IMG/VR virus record: IMGVR_UViG_3300047457_000811
Coordinates: 1-29,138 of that record
Length of the DNA stretch: 29,138 bases
DNA from: a virus
Reading direction: 5' to 3' (one strand)
Part shown: positions 1 to 27,671 of the stretch, in pieces
How the letters are laid out: the number at the start of each line of letters is the position of its first letter
Position numbering within the stretch: the stretch's first letter is position 1
The notes under the pieces: generated by a model
What the model was told of the DNA's origin: nothing
The model's input: the letters and a program-made list of their open reading frames with translations, nothing else
The model's database searches: none
Program-made: the position numbers and the translations under genes

Positions 1-393
1 CGTCTCCGTCCAACACGGGTAGACCTGATTGCACAGCGAGTAGCATTGGGTCGGCCCGCAGAACGGATTTGGTGGGGTGACACCGACATACTCCTCGTAG
101 TTCGGAGCGCCTTGCCCAAGGTGCGAGACGAGCGTGTGCGAGACGGTGCCGACTCCCGCCTCCAGTTCCATGACGCAGCCAAGCAGGTCGTTGCGAAGGA
201 GCCGAACGCCCGTCCACCGGAGCGACTGCGACTCCCGCAGCAGCACCTTCGACGCGGAGCCTTGCAGCCTCATTTCCCGCACGAAGTCGATGGACACGCT
301 CAGGTTGATCGCTTGCGGGAGGCACGCGCACAGGTCTTCGCAGAGGAAGTCCTGCGTGTTGCAGCAGCACGCGGCAGCGACCTCACTTCCCAT
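1..393 (-). CDS. Partial cysteine-rich protein, unknown function (runs off left edge)
   Basis: An open frame of 131 codons reads from an ATG at 393 to base 1 with no stop, so the C-terminus is missing. The ATG lies inside the last codons of the lipoprotein gene before it (stop 385-383), an 11-base overlap like the coupled junctions upstream. The protein is cysteine-rich: six Cys fall in residues 9-24, including three in a row at 9-11, and more Cys occur near the window edge in a CxxxxxCxxxC-like arrangement. I see no signal peptide or membrane segment. I do not recognise the family. Its place just after the lysis genes does not show whether it belongs to lysis or to the virion. Disulfides or metal binding are possible from the Cys content, but this is inference. 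Confidence 0.7.
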   Translation of the reverse strand, partial: MGSEVAAACCCNTQDFLCEDLCACLPQAINLSVSIDFVREMRLQGSASKVLLRESQSLRWTGVRLLRNDLLGCVMELEAGVGTVSHTLVSHLGQGAPNYEEYVGVTPPNPFCGPTQCYSLCNQVYPCWTET

Positions 394-4808: not shown

Positions 4809-6881
4809 TCAGAAGGTTCCGAAGTCGATGTCAAGGAGCGGAGCGTCGATGGTGCCGAAATCATCGTTCAACGCGCTCGGGGAGTCAATCGTGCCGTAGT
4901 CGAAATCTCCCGTCAGGGGGGTGCAGATGATCTTGACCGCGTTCGGCATTGAGAACCAGTAGCGCCTCTTCCGGTCGTTCCTGCTGTTCTGTTCCGCGTT
5001 GGTCTGCGGAAACTGCTCCGTCATCATCACGACCACGCCAATGTCAATCGGCTTTGCTTGGATGGTCGCCATCGGGAAGTCCGACTGTAGGACACCCGGA
5101 GCGATGCGGATAGGACCGCCCGCTCCCGCGGTGGCATTGTTGTAGCCCTCGCAGAGATTGGTCGCGTACCACCCCGTTGATGTCGTGCTTCGCCCAAACA
5201 GGCCGCACGAAACGATGTTTGGTTGATCGTCCGACAGCGGCTCGACCTCCTCAAACTCGTACTTCCACCGCCATTGGCTCGGGACTTGGATGTACGACTT
5301 GATCCGCGCCGGGAATGTCCTGCACATCGGCGGGGCGCTGTCGATCTGCAACGCTCCGTTGTGGATGCGCCGTGCGTGGATCGTTCCCTGCCCGAACACC
5401 AGTTCCCGCGGATCGTCCGGCAGGAGTCCGTCCGGCCCCAAAATCCAATCGTCCTCGCGGGCCTCCGTGATCGTGACAGGGACATACTCGCCATCCACAT
5501 GCGAAACGGTGTACCGCAGCATTGTGGCGCGATACGCGCCGGGAGGCACGGGTAGCCATCCCGCCCATGCGATGCGACCGAACTGCACCTCGCACCGTGC
5601 CGTCATTTTGTTCCGCGAGTAGATCGTGAGGTTTTCGACATTGCTCTGGGTTGGAGCGCCTTGGCGGTCGTTGGTGTTGGAAATCGTGTCGAGGAACGCG
5701 GCATTCGGCCATGCAACCAACGGGTTCGTCAGGCTTGAAGCGGCGGGGATCGTCAACGGCTCTTTGACTCGCAGCCGTACGCCGCCCCCGTATCGTTGCC
5801 GCGCCGTCAGGATCGACAGGTAGGGGCCGTATTCCTTGTGGAACATGAATGTCTGCTCCGCTGTGGGCAACGGGCCGACCTTCGTGATCAGTTCGTAATC
5901 GTTGTTGTAGTAGGTCTTGGCCTCAACCGTGTGCAGGGGGAACAGCACATCCATCTGCGACGGCGCTCGGTGAATCTGCCGCTCCGGGCTTCCACCGTCA
6001 GCCGCGAGGGTATTGCCGCCTTGCCACAACTGCACAAGTCCGTCTACGGCTCCGGGTGCGCCGCCGATAGACGCTCCGCTTGTCGTGGCGATGCCACCCG
6101 CGGCTGCGTTCTTGAAGTCCTGCATGAACGCATTCAGAGCGACCCAATCGTTCCCGATGGTCTTGTACATGTAGGTGCCGTATCCCATCCATTGGATGAC
6201 GGCCCCGGCGAGGCTAGCGCGGAGGTCATACCACATCGCAGCGGAGCATTCCGGCGTGAGCGACAGATTCGCGAGCCGCTTGATGTATTCCAAGTTCACA
6301 AATGGATCGTCAAGCGGATCGGTCTGCACGCTGTTCATCGGGAGCGACGGGGGAACATCATTGATCTGATTTTCGTTTCCCGGCTGACTAGTGTCTGTCC
6401 ACGAGCGCCCGGTCGAATCGCTCTCCCCGAAGTAATACTCGCTGGGATAGAACGGCGTTCGCTTCCAGTAGTAGCGGCAATCGACCGCCTCCACTAGATA
6501 CACGCCCGCCATGCCCGGGCGCACGAAGATCGGCTTCGGCGGCAGCGGAAACAGCCAAATCTCCTGATATCCAAGTTCGCGGTCGGTTCGCCAACGGAAC
6601 GGGATGCTGTAGTCGCCGTAGGGTCCGAAGCGGTTCTTGTAGATGAAGTCCAGTTGCGACTGCGCCACGACGCACTTGATCCGCGCCTCGCGGCTCGCGC
6701 CCGATGGGATGTCGATGCTGAACAGGTCTTCGATGGGGATGCCCGCGAGCCTCGCGAGGTCGTGCAGTTCCTCGCTCGGCATCAAGCACGGGATGATCCG
6801 ATCCTGCTCCCACAACGGGGAGTTCGGGTCGTACGGGTCAACCCCGCGGTGAGTCGTACCCGCGAACCATGCTTCGATCAT
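4809..6881 (-). CDS. Large distal tail / baseplate protein (690 aa)
   Basis: The start is ATG 6881, overlapping the previous stop as ATGA. The frame stays open to 7166, but the extra residues are Arg/His-rich and overlap the neighbour by nearly 300 bases, so I reject that extension. The N-terminal part is rich in Tyr, Trp and Pro (for example FPLPPKPIFVRPGMAGVYLVE). A mixed alpha/beta middle follows. The C-terminus ends in a short repeat of (D/N)DFGTID (residues about 658-690). No enzyme motif is evident. Position two genes after the tape measure and before the adhesin suggests a hub or baseplate component. I do not recognise the family. Confidence 0.65.
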   Translation of the reverse strand: MIEAWFAGTTHRGVDPYDPNSPLWEQDRIIPCLMPSEELHDLARLAGIPIEDLFSIDIPSGASREARIKCVVAQSQLDFIYKNRFGPYGDYSIPFRWRTDRELGYQEIWLFPLPPKPIFVRPGMAGVYLVEAVDCRYYWKRTPFYPSEYYFGESDSTGRSWTDTSQPGNENQINDVPPSLPMNSVQTDPLDDPFVNLEYIKRLANLSLTPECSAAMWYDLRASLAGAVIQWMGYGTYMYKTIGNDWVALNAFMQDFKNAAAGGIATTSGASIGGAPGAVDGLVQLWQGGNTLAADGGSPERQIHRAPSQMDVLFPLHTVEAKTYYNNDYELITKVGPLPTAEQTFMFHKEYGPYLSILTARQRYGGGVRLRVKEPLTIPAASSLTNPLVAWPNAAFLDTISNTNDRQGAPTQSNVENLTIYSRNKMTARCEVQFGRIAWAGWLPVPPGAYRATMLRYTVSHVDGEYVPVTITEAREDDWILGPDGLLPDDPRELVFGQGTIHARRIHNGALQIDSAPPMCRTFPARIKSYIQVPSQWRWKYEFEEVEPLSDDQPNIVSCGLFGRSTTSTGWYATNLCEGYNNATAGAGGPIRIAPGVLQSDFPMATIQAKPIDIGVVVMMTEQFPQTNAEQNSRNDRKRRYWFSMPNAVKIICTPLTGDFDYGTIDSPSALNDDFGTIDAPLLDIDFGTF

Positions 6882-21427: not shown

Positions 21428-22864
21428 TCAGGCGAAGAACGCCTTACGAGGGGCTTTCGCCCCGAACAGTCTACCTATCGCGTCGGGCTTCTCAAAGCGT
21501 TTGACATCCCGATCCGACTTCGTGAGGGAGCCGCGTACCGCCTCCATGCAGAGGTCGACCACGACATCGACCGTATCGTCGTGCGATCCCGCCGGGAAGG
21601 ACATCATCTCGTCCATGACGGGCTGGAAGGACGGGACGAGCGATCCGTCTTTGTCAATCGGGAACATCAACTTGCCGGACTGCACGAACGGCTGCGCGCC
21701 CGCGGCCCTCATGTGCTTGTCGCTCGTCCGCTCGACGGAGAGCATGGGCTGCTTCGTGATCTCCCCGAACTGGTCGAAGATTCCCTTCTGCGGCCCGTTC
21801 GCCTCGGCGAGCACGACCGACACGCCGCGGCGGTCTAGGAGTTCAGCCGCCATGCGTGCGAACACGGGGAACGGCTCCCGTACCCTGATGATCTCGGTGA
21901 GGTACAGCCTCCGCTCGCTGTCGACTTCCCCGACGATGCACACGGAGTAGTCGGGGTCGTCGCGCTCCTGCTCCCTGCGCCCGTATCCCCAATCCAGCGC
22001 TGCGATGGTCCTCGTGATCGCGGGCTTTGACTCCCTGCGGTAGTGTCCGATCCACTCGGGCCGGAACACAAGGAGGTCGGAGGAGAGCGGGACGAGTTCG
22101 TAGGCGCGGGCGTATGCCATCGCTCCCATCTCATCCCTTCGTGCGCGAAGGATGTCCGCTGTGAACGCTTCCGGCCATGGCGACTCGTCTCCGATGCACG
22201 GCGTGCGCAGGAGCGTTCCCTCGGCGTCGTGCAGCCTCCTCCAGTCGGCCGTGATGTCGTCAGTATGGAACGGAGTCGCAGACCGCCATACGCGGGAGGG
22301 ATGCGATGCCGCCGGGTCGAGCATGGGCATCCAGATGTTCGACACGGCTTCCTTCACCTGAGCGCGGAGCGCTGGCTGAAGGACCGAGTTGCGCAGGTCG
22401 CAGATGTCGTCGAACCAGATCACGTCGGCGCGGCCGCCCGTACGCCCGAACACTCCCGAACCTTGAACGGACGGGTCCCTGCGTTCCGGCATTCCCGGAA
22501 CCGTGATCGACCATGCCGTCGTCCTGTCGTCTCCAGACTTGAGTTCGACCTCCGGGAAGGTCGCACGGTATGCGGGGGATCGGATGATCTCCCGGAGGAA
22601 CCTCGTCGTGCTCGTCGCCGCCTCGTCGTTCTGCGAGACGATCTTGAACCTCGTATCGGGCCTGACTCCGAGCCACCATGCGGTCAGGTACGAGAGAGTG
22701 CTCGTCTTTCCGTGTCCACGAGGCAGTTCGGCGTACCAAGATAGGTTCGCCAAGGCGTGTCCGATGAGCTCTTCCTGCAGTGCGCTGACGGTCTTGCCTA
22801 GGCAGAAGGAGATGAACACGGACGGGTCCTGTCTGGCCGCGTCGATGATCCTGTCCGGGGTCAC
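21428..22864 (-). CDS. terL: Terminase large subunit
   Basis: GTG at 22864 overlaps the upstream stop as GTGA; the product is 478 aa. The ATPase part has a Walker A variant at residues 48-55 (PRGHGKTS), a Walker B at 146-153 (ADVIWFDD, with Asp where most have Glu), and a coupling motif at 195-200 (SATPFH). The nuclease part has DWGYG (D291), LAEANG (E354) and SHDDTVD (D429/D430), the three acidic positions of the RNase H-like fold. It packages DNA through the portal and cuts it. The gene follows a small candidate subunit and precedes the module-array genes, then the portal. The protein is complete and about the family's usual length. Confidence 0.9.
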   Translation of the reverse strand: MTPDRIIDAARQDPSVFISFCLGKTVSALQEELIGHALANLSWYAELPRGHGKTSTLSYLTAWWLGVRPDTRFKIVSQNDEAATSTTRFLREIIRSPAYRATFPEVELKSGDDRTTAWSITVPGMPERRDPSVQGSGVFGRTGGRADVIWFDDICDLRNSVLQPALRAQVKEAVSNIWMPMLDPAASHPSRVWRSATPFHTDDITADWRRLHDAEGTLLRTPCIGDESPWPEAFTADILRARRDEMGAMAYARAYELVPLSSDLLVFRPEWIGHYRRESKPAITRTIAALDWGYGRREQERDDPDYSVCIVGEVDSERRLYLTEIIRVREPFPVFARMAAELLDRRGVSVVLAEANGPQKGIFDQFGEITKQPMLSVERTSDKHMRAAGAQPFVQSGKLMFPIDKDGSLVPSFQPVMDEMMSFPAGSHDDTVDVVVDLCMEAVRGSLTKSDRDVKRFEKPDAIGRLFGAKAPRKAFFA

Positions 22865-23262: not shown

Positions 23263-24195
23263 TCATTTGCTCCTTGAAGATGGGTCCCTTGCCTCCGGAG
23301 GCTCGTCCGTCACTCCATGCTGCTCGGCGAACTCCCTGAGCGACCCGGACTTGATCCTGCGCTGCGCCGTGAGCCTGAGCCCGTATTCGTTCGGCTTGAT
23401 GGAGTTCAGGTCGATCCCATCCTTCAACTTCAACGGAGTGTCGAACTTCCTCCACGAGTCGCTGACGACATGCTGAGGCCTCTTGAACCGCCTGTCGACT
23501 CCGACGACATGCGGCCACACTCTTTCCAGGCTCCTCGCCATCTTGAGCCTTCCGTCGCCCTTGTACAACTGGTCCGTGTTCCCGCCCTTCATCACCATCG
23601 ACGCCATCTTCTCTATCAGGAAGGCGTTGAACAGCGCGGTGCATTTTCCCGACGAAAGCACTTGGAGGCACAGGTCGGTGTCCTCGTTGTACCTGCCTCT
23701 CCACCTGTGCGGAATGTCGTTCTGGATGAGCAGGCACGAGTACACATGCACATTGAGGAAGAACGGAGGCAACTTCGGATAGCCGAACATGGTGTAGTTC
23801 ATTCCGCTGATCCACAGGTTCTCGTACCTGTCCGTGAAGTCCTCTATCGCGGCGAACGCGGGGCCGGACTCGCAGGGAATCCTCTTGCCCTTGTAGAACC
23901 TCTTCACCTGACGGATGTTGTCGTCCAGTATCCAGTGCCGCTTCGCGCCGATGGAGATGGAATGCTCCCAGCACCAGTTGCGCGCAGGTATGCCTCCAAG
24001 CCCGAGGTTGCTGAACGGCAGGACGAGCATGTTCTCCGCTCCGAATGCGGCGGCGTACTGCTCCGACTCCTGCGGCTCCACGACGATCTTGAACGGAACC
24101 TTGTCGCGCAGCAGGAACTTCGCCGTCAGGCCGTTGTCATGCCTTCCCTTGCTGATGACATAGACGGGGTAGCGCGGGAGAATCCTGTCATCCAT
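23263..24195 (-). CDS. TET-associated-type glycosyltransferase (TAGT family), DNA hypermodification candidate
   Basis: This 310-aa protein starts at ATG 24195 and overlaps the ParB-domain gene by 8 bases. Visible motifs are VYVISKGR (11-18), EPQESEQYAAAFG (40-52), IPARNWCWE (69-77), HWILDDNI (87-94, a D-D-N/DxD-like sugar-nucleotide motif) and RWRGRYNEDTDLCLQ (164-178). MKGGNT (202-207) is also present. These match my recollection of the TET/JBP-associated glycosyltransferases (TAGT) found in phages that hypermodify cytosine. Such enzymes add sugars to hydroxylated bases. A TET/JBP oxygenase is not present in the window. The gene is cotranscribed with the terminase genes, consistent with modification of DNA before packaging. 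The substrate is unknown. Confidence 0.75.
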   Translation of the reverse strand: MDDRILPRYPVYVISKGRHDNGLTAKFLLRDKVPFKIVVEPQESEQYAAAFGAENMLVLPFSNLGLGGIPARNWCWEHSISIGAKRHWILDDNIRQVKRFYKGKRIPCESGPAFAAIEDFTDRYENLWISGMNYTMFGYPKLPPFFLNVHVYSCLLIQNDIPHRWRGRYNEDTDLCLQVLSSGKCTALFNAFLIEKMASMVMKGGNTDQLYKGDGRLKMARSLERVWPHVVGVDRRFKRPQHVVSDSWRKFDTPLKLKDGIDLNSIKPNEYGLRLTAQRRIKSGSLREFAEQHGVTDEPPEARDPSSRSK

Positions 24196-24913
24196 TGCGC
24201 GACTCCGAGAACCGGAGGCTCGACGGGTCCTCCCTCTCCCGCTCGGGCCACCAGATCGACCATGTTCCTTGGTTCTTGAACCTCGTGTGTCCGACTCCGA
24301 TCAACTGCATGAAGTTCCTTCGGTCCTCTTCATCCTCGAACGACACGGTCAGTTTCAGCGGCTCGTCCTGCGCCTCGTATTCGGGCATTCCCACCCATTC
24401 CGCGGCCTCGTTGATGTCGTTGATCTCCGACTGCGGGCGGGTCACCATGACGAGGTTGGCGAGCATCATCGGGTTGAATCCCGTTCCGACGAGTTCGTCC
24501 ATGTCCTTGATGTCCTTGAGGATCTCGCTGAGCATGCGGTCGTCTATCTCCGCAAGCCTTCCGACCTCGTTGTCTCCTGTGAGGATCTTCAGCGCCTTTG
24601 GATCGTCATGGGCGATGTCGATGACGACGGCCGGAATCTCCGACAGCCCCATCCGCTTCGCGGCTTGAACGATCCCGTGTCCCGCGAGGATCGTCCCGTC
24701 CCTCGCGACGACGACCGGCCTGTAGAACCCGTGCTCCTCGATCGACCTCACGAGGTGGTCGATCTGATCCTCCGGGTGGCTGCGGTAGTTCCTCGGATGC
24801 GGCTTCAGTTCCGAGATGTCGTAGTTGATCGTCTCGTGCTCCATCGTCTGCTCCATCCTCAATGCGGCTTCTTCGCCGGGTGCGTTCCGGTCGTTCCGAT
24901 TCTTCCCTCGCAT
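24188..24913 (-). CDS. ParB/sulfiredoxin-fold domain protein
   Basis: This 241-aa protein starts at ATG 24913 with AAGG about 7 bases before it; ATG 24844 with GGAG before it is an alternative start. Residues about 32-100 show the ParB nuclease-like N-terminal domain: ISELKPHPRNYRSHPEDQIDHLVRSIEEHGFYRPVVVARDGTILAGHG. A-G-H-G stands at the usual G-H-R position, followed by AAKRMGLSEIPAVVID. A C-terminal region (about 165-230) has EAAEWVGMPEYE, LTVSFEDEEDRRNFMQLIG and a W-rich end (TWSIWWPERERED). Such fusions occur in phages next to DNA-modification genes. It may act as a nucleotide-binding/hydrolysing or DNA-recognition partner of the glycosyltransferase that overlaps it. No HTH is seen. Confidence 0.75.
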   Translation of the reverse strand: MRGKNRNDRNAPGEEAALRMEQTMEHETINYDISELKPHPRNYRSHPEDQIDHLVRSIEEHGFYRPVVVARDGTILAGHGIVQAAKRMGLSEIPAVVIDIAHDDPKALKILTGDNEVGRLAEIDDRMLSEILKDIKDMDELVGTGFNPMMLANLVMVTRPQSEINDINEAAEWVGMPEYEAQDEPLKLTVSFEDEEDRRNFMQLIGVGHTRFKNQGTWSIWWPEREREDPSSLRFSESRNG

Positions 24914-25324: not shown

Positions 25325-25721
25325 GCCGGGCTTTGGAGGGCCCGGCTTCGCGGATCGGGGTCGTCGTGCCGTCCCTCGCTCGCTTGACTCTGATTCAGCG
25401 TTTGGTGGGAATGCGGGAACACCATGACCCCGCGGATGCGGGGTGCGAGGGCTTCAGCAGTCCGGAGCCGAACGCTGGGTTTCCCAAGGCGCAACTTCCA
25501 CCATTTCGACGGGCCATCCGCTTCCGTTGCGCAGGAGCGAGCCACCGGAATCCATGGCGGCTGCGCCGGGTAGGGTCAACTCCGGCGTCTTGAGCGGCCA
25601 TAGGCCGCACCCTTCGACGCACGGACGGAGCGTGTGCGTTTCCGCTGCAGCGTGGCGTCTGACGCCCTGTTATCCCCGCGGTACGCTGCCACCGCCCGAT
25701 TGACCCTGCACGAATGCAGGG
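25325..25721 (-). ncRNA. Candidate structured RNA or long 5' leader of the leftward operon
   Basis: At least seven perfect inverted repeats lie within about 400 bases (plus coordinates): 25704-25710/25715-25721 (CCCTGCA with a TTCG loop on the minus strand), 25654-25657/25663-25666, 25617-25622/25634-25639 and 25594-25599/25603-25608 (GCGGCC, loop of 3). The others are 25564-25569/25582-25587, 25489-25495/25526-25532 (GCGCAAC) and 25427-25433/25438-25444 (ACCCCGC, loop of 4), with one more at 25325-25331/25340-25346 (GCCGGGC). No coding frame explains them. A leftward promoter candidate at 25901-25929 would make this part of the late-operon leader. The strand is inferred from the promoter and the TTCG loop. 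The family is not recognised. Confidence 0.5.
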
Positions 25722-25900
25722 GTACTCATCCTACACATCTCGGTCGGGCTTGTACATTGGAATCTGGATGGACGGACGAGAATCGTCTTTCCCGGCTATT
25801 CCGAAACAACCGAATCTGAGATGCCCCTCTTGAGTCGAGCGCCCCTATCAGTCTCCAGACGATCTAGCGATTTGCTGACATAAACCCTTGTAGATCATCT

Positions 25901-25934: not shown

Positions 25935-25963
25935 TTTACACCCTCGTCGGCACAGGTTACATT
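25935..25963 (+). promoter_or_regulatory. Rightward promoter 1 of the amidoligase unit
   Basis: TTTACA (25935-25940), a 17-base spacer and TACATT (25958-25963). It shares TTTACACC and ACAGGTTACA with the promoter at 27750-27778, so the element is duplicated. The start point would be near 25970, just before the leader hairpin. A short palindrome CGATTTATCG (about 25916-25925) just upstream might be a repressor site, but this is tentative. Confidence 0.75.
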
Positions 25964-25969
25964 GTGTAC

Positions 25970-26025
25970 ATGGAGCATGTCGCTCCTCCGATCCGACCGG
26001 AAGTCGGAATGAACGAGGATGAACA
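25970..26025 (+). promoter_or_regulatory. Leader with two hairpins (copy 1)
   Basis: The leader holds a hairpin GGAGC/GCTCC (25972-25976/25982-25986), then CCGATCC, then a hairpin TCCGAC/GTCGGA (25992-25997/26003-26008) with loop CGGAA, followed by TGAACGAGGATGAACA and the ATG at 26026. AGGA serves as the ribosome binding site. Copy 2 at 27785 has the same order, with the same loop CGGAA and a base-pair swap in the stem. Confidence 0.7.
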
Positions 26026-26916
26026 ATGATCGCTCATGAGATGACATATGGAGTGGAGATCGAATGCGGCATCGACCGCAATGTCAACCTTCGGGTCGGT
26101 GGCTACCACGCCGGTACCTCCTGCACGGCCCTCCCGTCCTTCGAAGGGAGGTACTGGAACGCACAGTCGGACTCCTCCCTCCACTTCTCGGAGCGACGCG
26201 CCGTGGAGTTCGTCAGCCCGATCCTCAAGGGAGCCGAAGGACTCGACAACATCCGGGCCGTCTGTGCGCAGATCAAGTCTTGGGGCGGGGTCACCAACAA
26301 CTCCTGCGGACTTCATGTCCATGTCGGAGTCCCCGCGAACCTCTCGGTGCAGCAGATCCGATGCCTGTATCAACTCGTCGGTCGGTTCGAGAACGCCCTG
26401 TATTCGTGCACGGGTACCCCGGAGCGCCGCTTGGGCCGCTACTGCCAGCCGATCAAGACCGATGCGAACAAGCGCATCGACTGGAACCGCCACCGCTGCA
26501 AGGAGGACCTCCGCTACAGCGAGCATACCCGCGAGATGCAGGACAGGTACCGCATCCTCAACGTGACTCCCTTCCTGTGCGGCCGTCAGAACACCGTCGA
26601 GTTCCGCGTGTTCAGCGGCTCGCTGAACCCCGCCAAGATCGCGGCATGGATTCAGGTCTGCCTCTCCCTCGTGGAGATGGCGCTCGACGGAGTGGACAGC
26701 GATTGGGACATCAAGCAGGAGTCGCTCGGCGCGAAGTACGGCCCGACGATGGGCGAGCGCAATGTCTACTACATGTGCAAGTACATGTGGCAGTGGAAGG
26801 TGCGGCGCTCGCGCAACTACGGCGAACTGAACCACACCGTCTTCACCCGCAAGGCGGCCACCAAGATCCTCCGTCAACTCGCCGCCCGTCACGATGAGCG
26901 GGCGGCTTCTCTCTGA
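26026..26916 (+). CDS. Amidoligase (COOH-NH2 ligase, glutamine synthetase-like fold)
   Basis: This 296-aa protein starts at ATG 26026, with AGGA 8 bases before it. Motifs of the amidoligase family are visible: GVEIE (9-13), D49-x-S-L (SDSSLHF), VEFVSP (60-65, with ILKG after), CGLHVHV (94-100), TPERR (131-135) and TVEFRVFSGSLNP (190-202). The E-x-E, E-F-V-S-P, H-x-H and E-F-R residues correspond to the metal/ATP-binding positions of this ATP-dependent ligase fold. It would join a carboxylate to an amine, in peptide or protein/cell-wall modification. The next gene is a class II glutamine amidotransferase, a pairing known for this family. The substrate in this phage is unknown. Its last codons overlap an 8-bp hairpin. 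Confidence 0.85.
   Translation: MIAHEMTYGVEIECGIDRNVNLRVGGYHAGTSCTALPSFEGRYWNAQSDSSLHFSERRAVEFVSPILKGAEGLDNIRAVCAQIKSWGGVTNNSCGLHVHVGVPANLSVQQIRCLYQLVGRFENALYSCTGTPERRLGRYCQPIKTDANKRIDWNRHRCKEDLRYSEHTREMQDRYRILNVTPFLCGRQNTVEFRVFSGSLNPAKIAAWIQVCLSLVEMALDGVDSDWDIKQESLGAKYGPTMGERNVYYMCKYMWQWKVRRSRNYGELNHTVFTRKAATKILRQLAARHDERAASL
26881..26906 (+). terminator. Hairpin at the end of the amidoligase gene
   Basis: GCCGCCCG (26881-26888), a 10-base loop and CGGGCGGC (26899-26906) form an 8-bp G+C stem, followed by TTCTCTCT. It lies in the last codons of the amidoligase gene. It may act as an attenuator that lowers readthrough into the amidotransferase gene, or it may be only codon-driven. The U-run is interrupted, so full termination is unlikely. 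Confidence 0.4.
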
Positions 26917-26942
26917 ACAGCGAACGAACAAGGAGAACGAAC

Positions 26943-27671
26943 ATGTGTGGAATCTACGGTTTCTGGGGCGGATCGCCCTTCAACACGGGTCGGATCAAGA
27001 CCCTTCACTCCGTCGCGCAGTCGCAGGTCGCCCGCGGGCGGGACGCATTCGGAGTCGCATGGCGCACCGACGACGGATGTCTTGAGGCGTTCAAGCGCGC
27101 AGGATGCGTGGCCGACCATCTCGGCGAACTTGAGCGCGCACGCGACGCGACCTGCCTGATCGGACATACCCGCTGGACCACGCACGGCAGCGCGGATCGG
27201 AACGACAACAACCATCCGCATGAGTTCATGTACCGCGATCAGAAGTGCTGGCTCGTCCACAACGGAGTGATCTGCAACTACCGCAGCATCGCCTGGATGA
27301 ACGGACTCGACATGCGCACGGAGTGCGACAGCGAGGTGATCGGACGGTTCATTGAGAATGCGAACGGATCGCTCATCGACCGCGTGCGCGAGTGCGTGGC
27401 GGCGGTCGATCCGTCCGCTCCCTTCGCGGTGGCGATTCTGGCTCCCGGAGGACTTCTGCTCGCACGCCGGGGCAATCCGTTGTTCTGGAGCGAGTCGAAG
27501 GACCGCAACTGGTTCGCCTCGACCCATCACGCGCTTCCGGGCAAGTCCTACGAGGTGCCGAACAACACGGCGTACTGGATTCCGTTCGGGAAGTCCTCCG
27601 TGATCAAGCGCGAACTCGCCGCGCAGCAGCCGTCCTCGGTACGATGGCTTGGAAGCAACCTCTTCGCATAG
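26943..27671 (+). CDS. Class II glutamine amidotransferase
   Basis: ATG at 26943 has AAGGAG 9 bases before it. The protein begins Met-Cys, so after removal of Met the catalytic N-terminal Cys is exposed. Motifs follow the GlmS/PurF-type Ntn-hydrolase fold: RGRDAFGVAW (31-40), GHTRWTTHGS (74-83), NHPHEF (90-95), VHNGVICNYRS (105-115) and CDSEVI (128-133). The enzyme would release ammonia from glutamine. No sugar-isomerase or synthase domain follows, so it is a stand-alone amidotransferase of 242 aa, probably supplying ammonia to the amidoligase made from the same transcript. The unit ends at the strong terminator downstream. Confidence 0.9.
   Translation: MCGIYGFWGGSPFNTGRIKTLHSVAQSQVARGRDAFGVAWRTDDGCLEAFKRAGCVADHLGELERARDATCLIGHTRWTTHGSADRNDNNHPHEFMYRDQKCWLVHNGVICNYRSIAWMNGLDMRTECDSEVIGRFIENANGSLIDRVRECVAAVDPSAPFAVAILAPGGLLLARRGNPLFWSESKDRNWFASTHHALPGKSYEVPNNTAYWIPFGKSSVIKRELAAQQPSSVRWLGSNLFA

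Follow-up and report, generated by a model that had tools for sequence, protein, structure and literature searches.

A predicted free-standing gene for a structured, pseudoknotted noncoding RNA in uncultivated phages

The locus and its hairpins

The window analysed here is the whole of a 29,138-base IMG/VR virus contig from a tailed phage. On its minus strand lie terL, a TAGT glycosyltransferase gene with an adjoining ParB-like gene and, further upstream, a small gene for an HTH-like protein; an amidoligase gene paired with a glutamine amidotransferase gene stands on the plus strand (Table 1). The TAGT glycosyltransferase/ParB-like pair (23263-24913, minus) and the amidoligase/glutamine amidotransferase pair (26026-27671, plus) might represent DNA or cell-envelope modification cassettes.

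A first-pass annotation had marked the stretch 25325-25721 as dense in hairpins, devoid of a credible gene and possibly the site of an ornate noncoding RNA, and had named a shuffled-sequence comparison, a covariation analysis on homologues and an Rfam search as checks. The hairpin density holds. With perfect arms and loops of 3-8, there are 11 inverted repeats of stem >=5, as against 4.2 +/- 2.3 in dinucleotide shuffles (p ~0.013), a count reached by 0.3% of the other windows of the contig. At stem >=6 there are 6, as against 1.0 in shuffles (p ~0.003), whereas the counts for stem >=4 (18 vs 14.4) show no excess. The excess is real and modest in size. Folding of the single sequence is only weakly better than that of shuffles (z -1.7 on the minus and -1.8 on the plus strand); thus hairpin density alone is insufficient to settle the question. 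The absence of a credible gene is also borne out, as no open reading frame is maintained among homologues; any single frame is free of stops in no more than 2 of 24, and a protein-coding gene was rejected. The minus-strand hairpin with a TTCG tetraloop, singled out in the same annotation, is present and stands where the 5' end of the RNA is predicted (P0).

Table 1. Genes, promoter elements and predicted RNA parts in the window
Feature	Position	Strand	Sequence	Context or support
terL	21428-22864	-
TAGT glycosyltransferase gene	23263-24195	-
ParB-like gene	24188-24913	-		adjoins TAGT glycosyltransferase gene
Small HTH-like protein gene, 97 aa	24984-25277	-		separate gene, not part of the RNA
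HTH-like gene promoter	25309-25281	-	TTGATC-17-TATCAT	directly before the start
Predicted ncRNA gene, whole	25325-25722	-		5' end ~25722; nhmmer and covariance-model matches
Conserved RNA core	25402-25695	-
-35-like hexamer, RNA promoter	25751-25756	-	TGTACA	spacer 17
-10-like hexamer, RNA promoter	25728-25733	-	TAGGAT	ends 32 nt before P1
P0, 5' hairpin	25704-25721	-	CCCTGCA-TTCG-TGCAGGG	hairpin of other sequence at this place in long-leader homologues (by eye)
P1 hairpin	25678-25695	-	GCGGU[GGCAGCGU]ACCGC	covariation
P2 hairpin	25654-25666	-	GGCGU[CAG]ACGCC	5'-domain structure counts; window letters
PK1 3' arm	25647-25653	-	ACGCUGC	partner is the P1 loop GCAGCGU; covariation
P3, crossed by short helix PK2	25617-25639	-	ACGCAC/GUGCGU; PK2 AGCG/CGCU	covariation
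P4 hairpin	25594-25608	-	GCGGCC[UAU]GGCCGC	long-leader subgroup only; alignment
P5 hairpin	25564-25587	-	conserved loop UGACCCUA	double changes in 6/6 pairs; 98.9% paired
P6 hairpin	25541-25561	-	variable in sequence and length	double changes in 5/5 pairs
P7, crosses P8	25519-25539	-	CGCU/AGCG	third pseudoknot; near-invariant, 100% paired; adjoining column pair 134-143 covaries
P8, long-range	25489-25532	-	GCGCAAC/GUUGCGC	encloses P9 and conserved CGAAAUGGUG; double changes in 7/7 pairs; 100% paired
P9	25508-25518	-	GAUGG/CCCGUC	covariation
Highly conserved segment	25462-25485	-	GGGAAACC...GGCUCCG	(near-)invariant in the 15 sequences of alignment A5, which leaves any pairing here without covariation evidence
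P10 hairpin	25427-25444	-	ACCCCGC/GCGGGGU	double changes in 3 pairs; conserved U-G pair; followed by conserved GGUGUUCC
3' hairpin	25325-25346	-	GCCGGGC[CCUCCAAA]GCCCGGC	no T-run; possible RNA 3' end, inferred only
Amidoligase gene	26026-26916	+
Glutamine amidotransferase gene	26943-27671	+		paired with amidoligase gene

The ends of the RNA gene are inferred from its promoter and its last hairpin. The predicted start (~25722) and the end of that hairpin (25325) coincide with the limits of the hairpin-dense stretch as first drawn, and the predicted length is ~330-400 nt. No clear T-run terminator was found.

Homologues and the covarying fold

Do other phages carry this sequence? The TerL protein used as bait gave 56 loci, and in a blastn comparison positions 25402-25632 of the window were matched in a dozen of these, among them L065, where the RNA and terL lie on opposite strands. 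The aligned homologues show long conserved motifs with variable hairpins between them. A degenerate pattern then gave 43 stretches in IMG/VR, and profile searches (nhmmer) confirmed full-length copies, of which 24 remain at <95% identity. Four loci (L158, L159, L161 and L162) were added by a second pattern and a covariance model. When loci of the same contig are merged, the carriers number ~49 including the window, i.e. ~48 other IMG/VR phage contigs. The pattern matches L116, L131, L147 and L160 were left out of this count. The first of them (5436-5552, minus) is matched only weakly by the covariance model (19.7 bits, E 0.003; the E-values of the model are rough), and could be either a very distant relative or chance. 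Of the other baits, the amidoligase protein found no relatives, and the ParB-like protein led to 47 loci in which ParB stands in other contexts; for that reason none of them showed a DNA match to the RNA.

All carriers are uncultivated phages. One pattern scan, over 84,980 genomes of bacteria and archaea, produced a single match, which the profile rejected; the RNA was in none of the phage records and plasmids searched, nor did any isolate of the phage collection turn out to carry it. A search of the open-licence literature found no description of it.

For covariation, the 24 homologues were aligned by MAFFT from sequence only, and all column pairs were scored by a G-test with APC and a null of 100 alignments in which substitutions were re-dealt along the tree; the test follows the approach of R-scape but was written for this analysis, and is not R-scape itself. 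The top 20 covarying column pairs are all Watson-Crick helix pairs, and fall in P1, P3, P5, P6, P7, P8, P9, PK1 and PK2. Ten of these exceed every one of the 5.3 million null pairs. Paired fractions were counted on tool-made (sequence-only) alignments, with the pairing slid as control. The default full-length MAFFT alignment (A1) misaligned the 5' half, so the halves were aligned separately, and five short-leader sequences with one extra base in P8 were excluded from model building. In the 3' domain 97.2% of the pairs form, as against 33-42% in the slid controls, with double changes in 24 of 36 pairs; the 5' domain of the short-leader group shows 97.3% and double changes in 16 of 26. For both domains together, ~97% of the proposed pairs form and compensatory double changes are present in 40 of 62.

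The fold contains three pseudoknots, as P7 crosses P8, P1 crosses PK1 and PK2 crosses P3. All seven PK1 pairs form in the window, and 6-7 of 7 form in nearly all other homologues. The count in single sequences is often no better than in a shuffle, however, and the weight for PK1 therefore lies with covariation. Two helices proposed by RNAalifold, GGGAA/UUCC and GGCU/GGCU, fall in invariant columns, and their pairing is without covariation support. Which strand is the RNA? In minus-strand letters G-U pairs outnumber A-C pairs by 38 to 6, which identifies the minus strand. The fold (P1, P2, P3, P5-P10 and the three crossing arrangements) is under selection on that strand. That 25325-25722 encodes a structured RNA is all but certain, although no transcript has been seen. 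Covariation, the lack of an Rfam match and a hairpin density above that of shuffles, three of the checks that were named, all support the ornate noncoding RNA of the first-pass annotation.

Promoter, neighbours and distribution

A sigma70-like promoter (TTGNNN-16..18-TANNNT) is found upstream of the RNA in 18 of 24 homologues, where 0.55 is expected from shuffles. Its distance to P1 is 18-23 nt in a short-leader group and 50-57 nt in a long-leader group, which has an extra 5' hairpin. The window's own copy is off consensus and was missed by a strict scan. Transcription by a host-type RNA polymerase from the RNA's own promoter is strongly suggested and appears likely.

The RNA was said to lie upstream of the whole leftward operon. 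This is correct for position; nonetheless the next gene has its own promoter (Table 1). Six short-leader carriers (L106, L108, L109, L123, L128 and L145) have a convergent downstream gene; elsewhere neighbours differ, other carriers have downstream genes that are unrelated, and there is no conserved partner gene. An RNA with its own promoter, followed by a gene that is separately promoted, convergent or unrelated, is read as a free-standing RNA gene and not as a leader. It is probably an independent transcript, a point inferred from sequence alone.

Two other elements lie near the RNA. Seven loci (L105, L146, L076, L113, L065, L049 and L095) have an inverted repeat just upstream of it, with arms of ~8-9 bp whose sequence varies between phages and whose complementarity is kept; in the long-leader group the repeat overlaps the -35 region of the RNA promoter, and the window is without it. 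A common early-type protein-gene promoter is present at 25935-25990 (plus) in the window and downstream of the RNA in L049, L105, L111, L112 and L146. Its spacer holds an inverted repeat, TTGCACCCT...AGGGTANNNT, and a 5' leader hairpin follows (GGGCATGTCGCCC, loop CATGTCG). The unit is found in the TerL clade and in podophages, and may combine an operator with an element of the boxB or put type.

Among TerL-clade contigs examined whole, those that bear the RNA have exactly one copy each. The RNA is inherited within this one phage clade, with TerL down to 67% identity. The near-full contigs without it constitute one clade nested among RNA-bearing ones, and their state is read as a single loss; a filters-off search of them for divergent copies found only noise upstream of the HTH/terL region. 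Contigs scored as RNA-less may be incomplete. Loss is evidently tolerated in one clade. As a separate observation, RNA-less relatives (L169-L174) have dispersed repeats of ~110-150 bp; each phage has several copies, and these are conserved from one phage to another.

The RNA is also present in contigs that lack the clade's TerL, namely BPP-1-like podophages and a third lineage, which indicates transfer or great age. One carrier, G031, is a BPP-1-like podophage by its portal, major head and terminase matches, and its portal shares 75% identity with the portal of Limnohabitans phage DC33. Hosts are suggested for one subgroup of carriers only, by analogy: portal similarity makes Limnohabitans the first candidate for the podophages. 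The phages nearest the podophage carriers (Limnohabitans phage DC33, zth2-2, ctEw122, ctQRb9 and BPP-1) are without the RNA. The DC33 record (PQ492659.1, L164) is filed as Inoviridae, yet it is a 39-kb genome with a podophage portal, and this taxonomy looks wrong. The third lineage, a poorly known group with hardly any database matches, is represented by G030 (41 kb; L148-L150); its large proteins, one of them of 3,709 aa, have no Pfam or PHROG match, and its terminase match is weak.

Position and orientation of the RNA relative to terL vary; in the window it lies upstream, at a distance of ~2.5 kb, and in L065 and L089 it is inverted. The TAGT glycosyltransferase is found in just 7 of 44 contigs, and the RNA is not linked to it. 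Of interest is the small HTH-like protein, which has no Pfam or PHROG match and was judged an HTH by eye. Close homologues (40-56% identity) are present in most RNA-bearing contigs of the TerL clade, and unrelated podophages (G031, G038 and G045) encode one as well, ~9-11 kb from the RNA. In TerL relatives without the RNA the protein is of a divergent subtype (26-32%). This switch of subtype coincides with the single loss of the RNA, so the link between HTH protein and RNA is merely suggestive.

Possible role and relation to known RNAs

What might the RNA do? The best explanation, and a likely one as a whole, is that ~25722-25325 (minus) encodes, as a gene standing on its own, a structured noncoding RNA that acts in trans. 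The compact, pseudoknotted product would work on a host machine during infection, as a scaffold or RNP or as an RNA-only complex. This is proposed because a single copy is kept through deep phage divergence, because unrelated phages carry the RNA and no partner gene goes with it consistently, and because its long conserved stretches (UGACCCUA, CGAAAUGGUG, GGGAAACCUCG, GGCUCCG and GGUGUUCC) resemble binding or active-site residues. Action in trans is inferred and probable; a purpose in host takeover or counter-defence is a tentative suggestion, with the balance tipped slightly against it. The present evidence identifies no target or activity. A bolder reading is compatible with the evidence but less likely than not, whereby an undescribed RNA machine of ~350 nt with a triple pseudoknot, catalytic or the scaffold of an RNA-only complex, is made early, is common to at least three unrelated phage lineages and acts on a host machine.

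A ribozyme, i.e. a catalytic pseudoknotted core that processes itself or acts on other RNA, would be consistent with the three crossing arrangements and the long invariant stretches around P8-P10, and would resemble other RNAs that combine pseudoknots with many invariant bases. Catalysis is only an inference here, and the idea is unlikely, as no known ribozyme family is matched at E<=10, no flanking substrate or host gene is conserved, and there is no reverse transcriptase or intron-like context. The first-pass annotation had offered a long regulatory leader as an alternative, and a cis-acting element of the leftward genes (attenuator, riboswitch or antitermination site) is suggested by the window and by L050, L052, L057, L073 and L098, where the RNA is just upstream of the co-oriented HTH-like gene. 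This is not supported. The promoters of the RNA and of the HTH-like gene, the convergent or unrelated downstream genes of other carriers and the distant HTH gene of the three podophages make it very unlikely.

Also very unlikely is an element that acts at the DNA level, such as a site for packaging or replication in the form of a folded single strand. Proximity to terL in the window speaks for it, but tolerance of G-U and not of A-C points to RNA, as does the conserved promoter, and the placement relative to terL is not constant. Could the hairpins be chance products of a GC-rich intergenic stretch, or the remains of a degenerate gene? The weak single-sequence folding score (z just ~-1.8) is the one point in favour; against it stand conservation and covariation over 24 distinct homologues, the latter a refutation in itself, and the absence of a maintained open frame, and both are all but ruled out.

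The preferred reading, a free-standing gene for a trans-acting RNA, has a wider bearing. Only a few structured phage RNAs reach such complexity (GOLLD, ROOL), and no function is established for any of them. The present RNA, which is compact, adds another class, with a promoter of its own, a fold that is firmly inferred, a covariance model and ~49 carriers. The clade that lost it offers a natural comparison with carriers, and a cultured carrier phage would make the function of such RNAs testable.

The RNA fits no known family. With cmscan, the whole window had 0 matches to Rfam at the gathering cut-off, and the region and two homologues had only chance matches at E<=10, to other families, so that none of the 4,227 families, GOLLD, ROOL and OLE included, is matched; the view of the first-pass annotation that it is neither GOLLD nor ROOL thus holds. 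It is new as an RNA family, and no new mechanism is claimed. Candidates tied to rRNA were rejected as well. Motifs resembling 23S rRNA in the 5' part of the window copy (GATGTGTAGGAT, GGGGATAACAGG) are not conserved in homologues and match neither E. coli genomes nor the rRNA models of Rfam, and as for an antisense to rRNA, the conserved segments give just a chance 8-mer against E. coli rRNA.

Several known RNAs offer comparisons. Like the IscB/TnpB omega RNAs (HEARO) and the retron and DGR RNAs, this is a structured noncoding RNA of mobile elements; unlike them, it has no Rfam match and no conserved partner gene. A retron or DGR RNA was rejected, since RVT_1 is found in 0 of 32 carriers and control genomes were positive. 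It resembles OLE in being standalone, ornate and strongly conserved, and differs in its phage carriers and in the lack of a covariance-model match; OLE RNA is known from bacteria and not from phages. GOLLD is a structured phage RNA of unknown function, found in metagenomes too, with many members >800 nt and near tRNA islands (PMC12286853). The present RNA is likewise a structured phage RNA known from metagenomes, but has no covariance-model match to GOLLD. ROOL (Rumen-Originating, Ornate, Large) is a big phage-encoded RNA with multiple pseudoknots and no known function or protein partner (PMC12286853). The present RNA shares the phage origin, the multiple pseudoknots and the lack of a known protein partner, whereas it has no covariance-model match, is ~330-400 nt and had no members in the pattern scan of bacterial genomes. 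ROOL is often near tRNA islands, whereas no tRNA or tmRNA gene was found in the 29-kb window, the only sequence scanned for them. Large structured phage ncRNAs of unknown function are a loose kind and not a homologous family; of their features, the present RNA shows an extensive covarying structure with pseudoknots, phage encoding and the absence of a conserved partner gene. In style, though not by homology, the RNA belongs beside ROOL and GOLLD.
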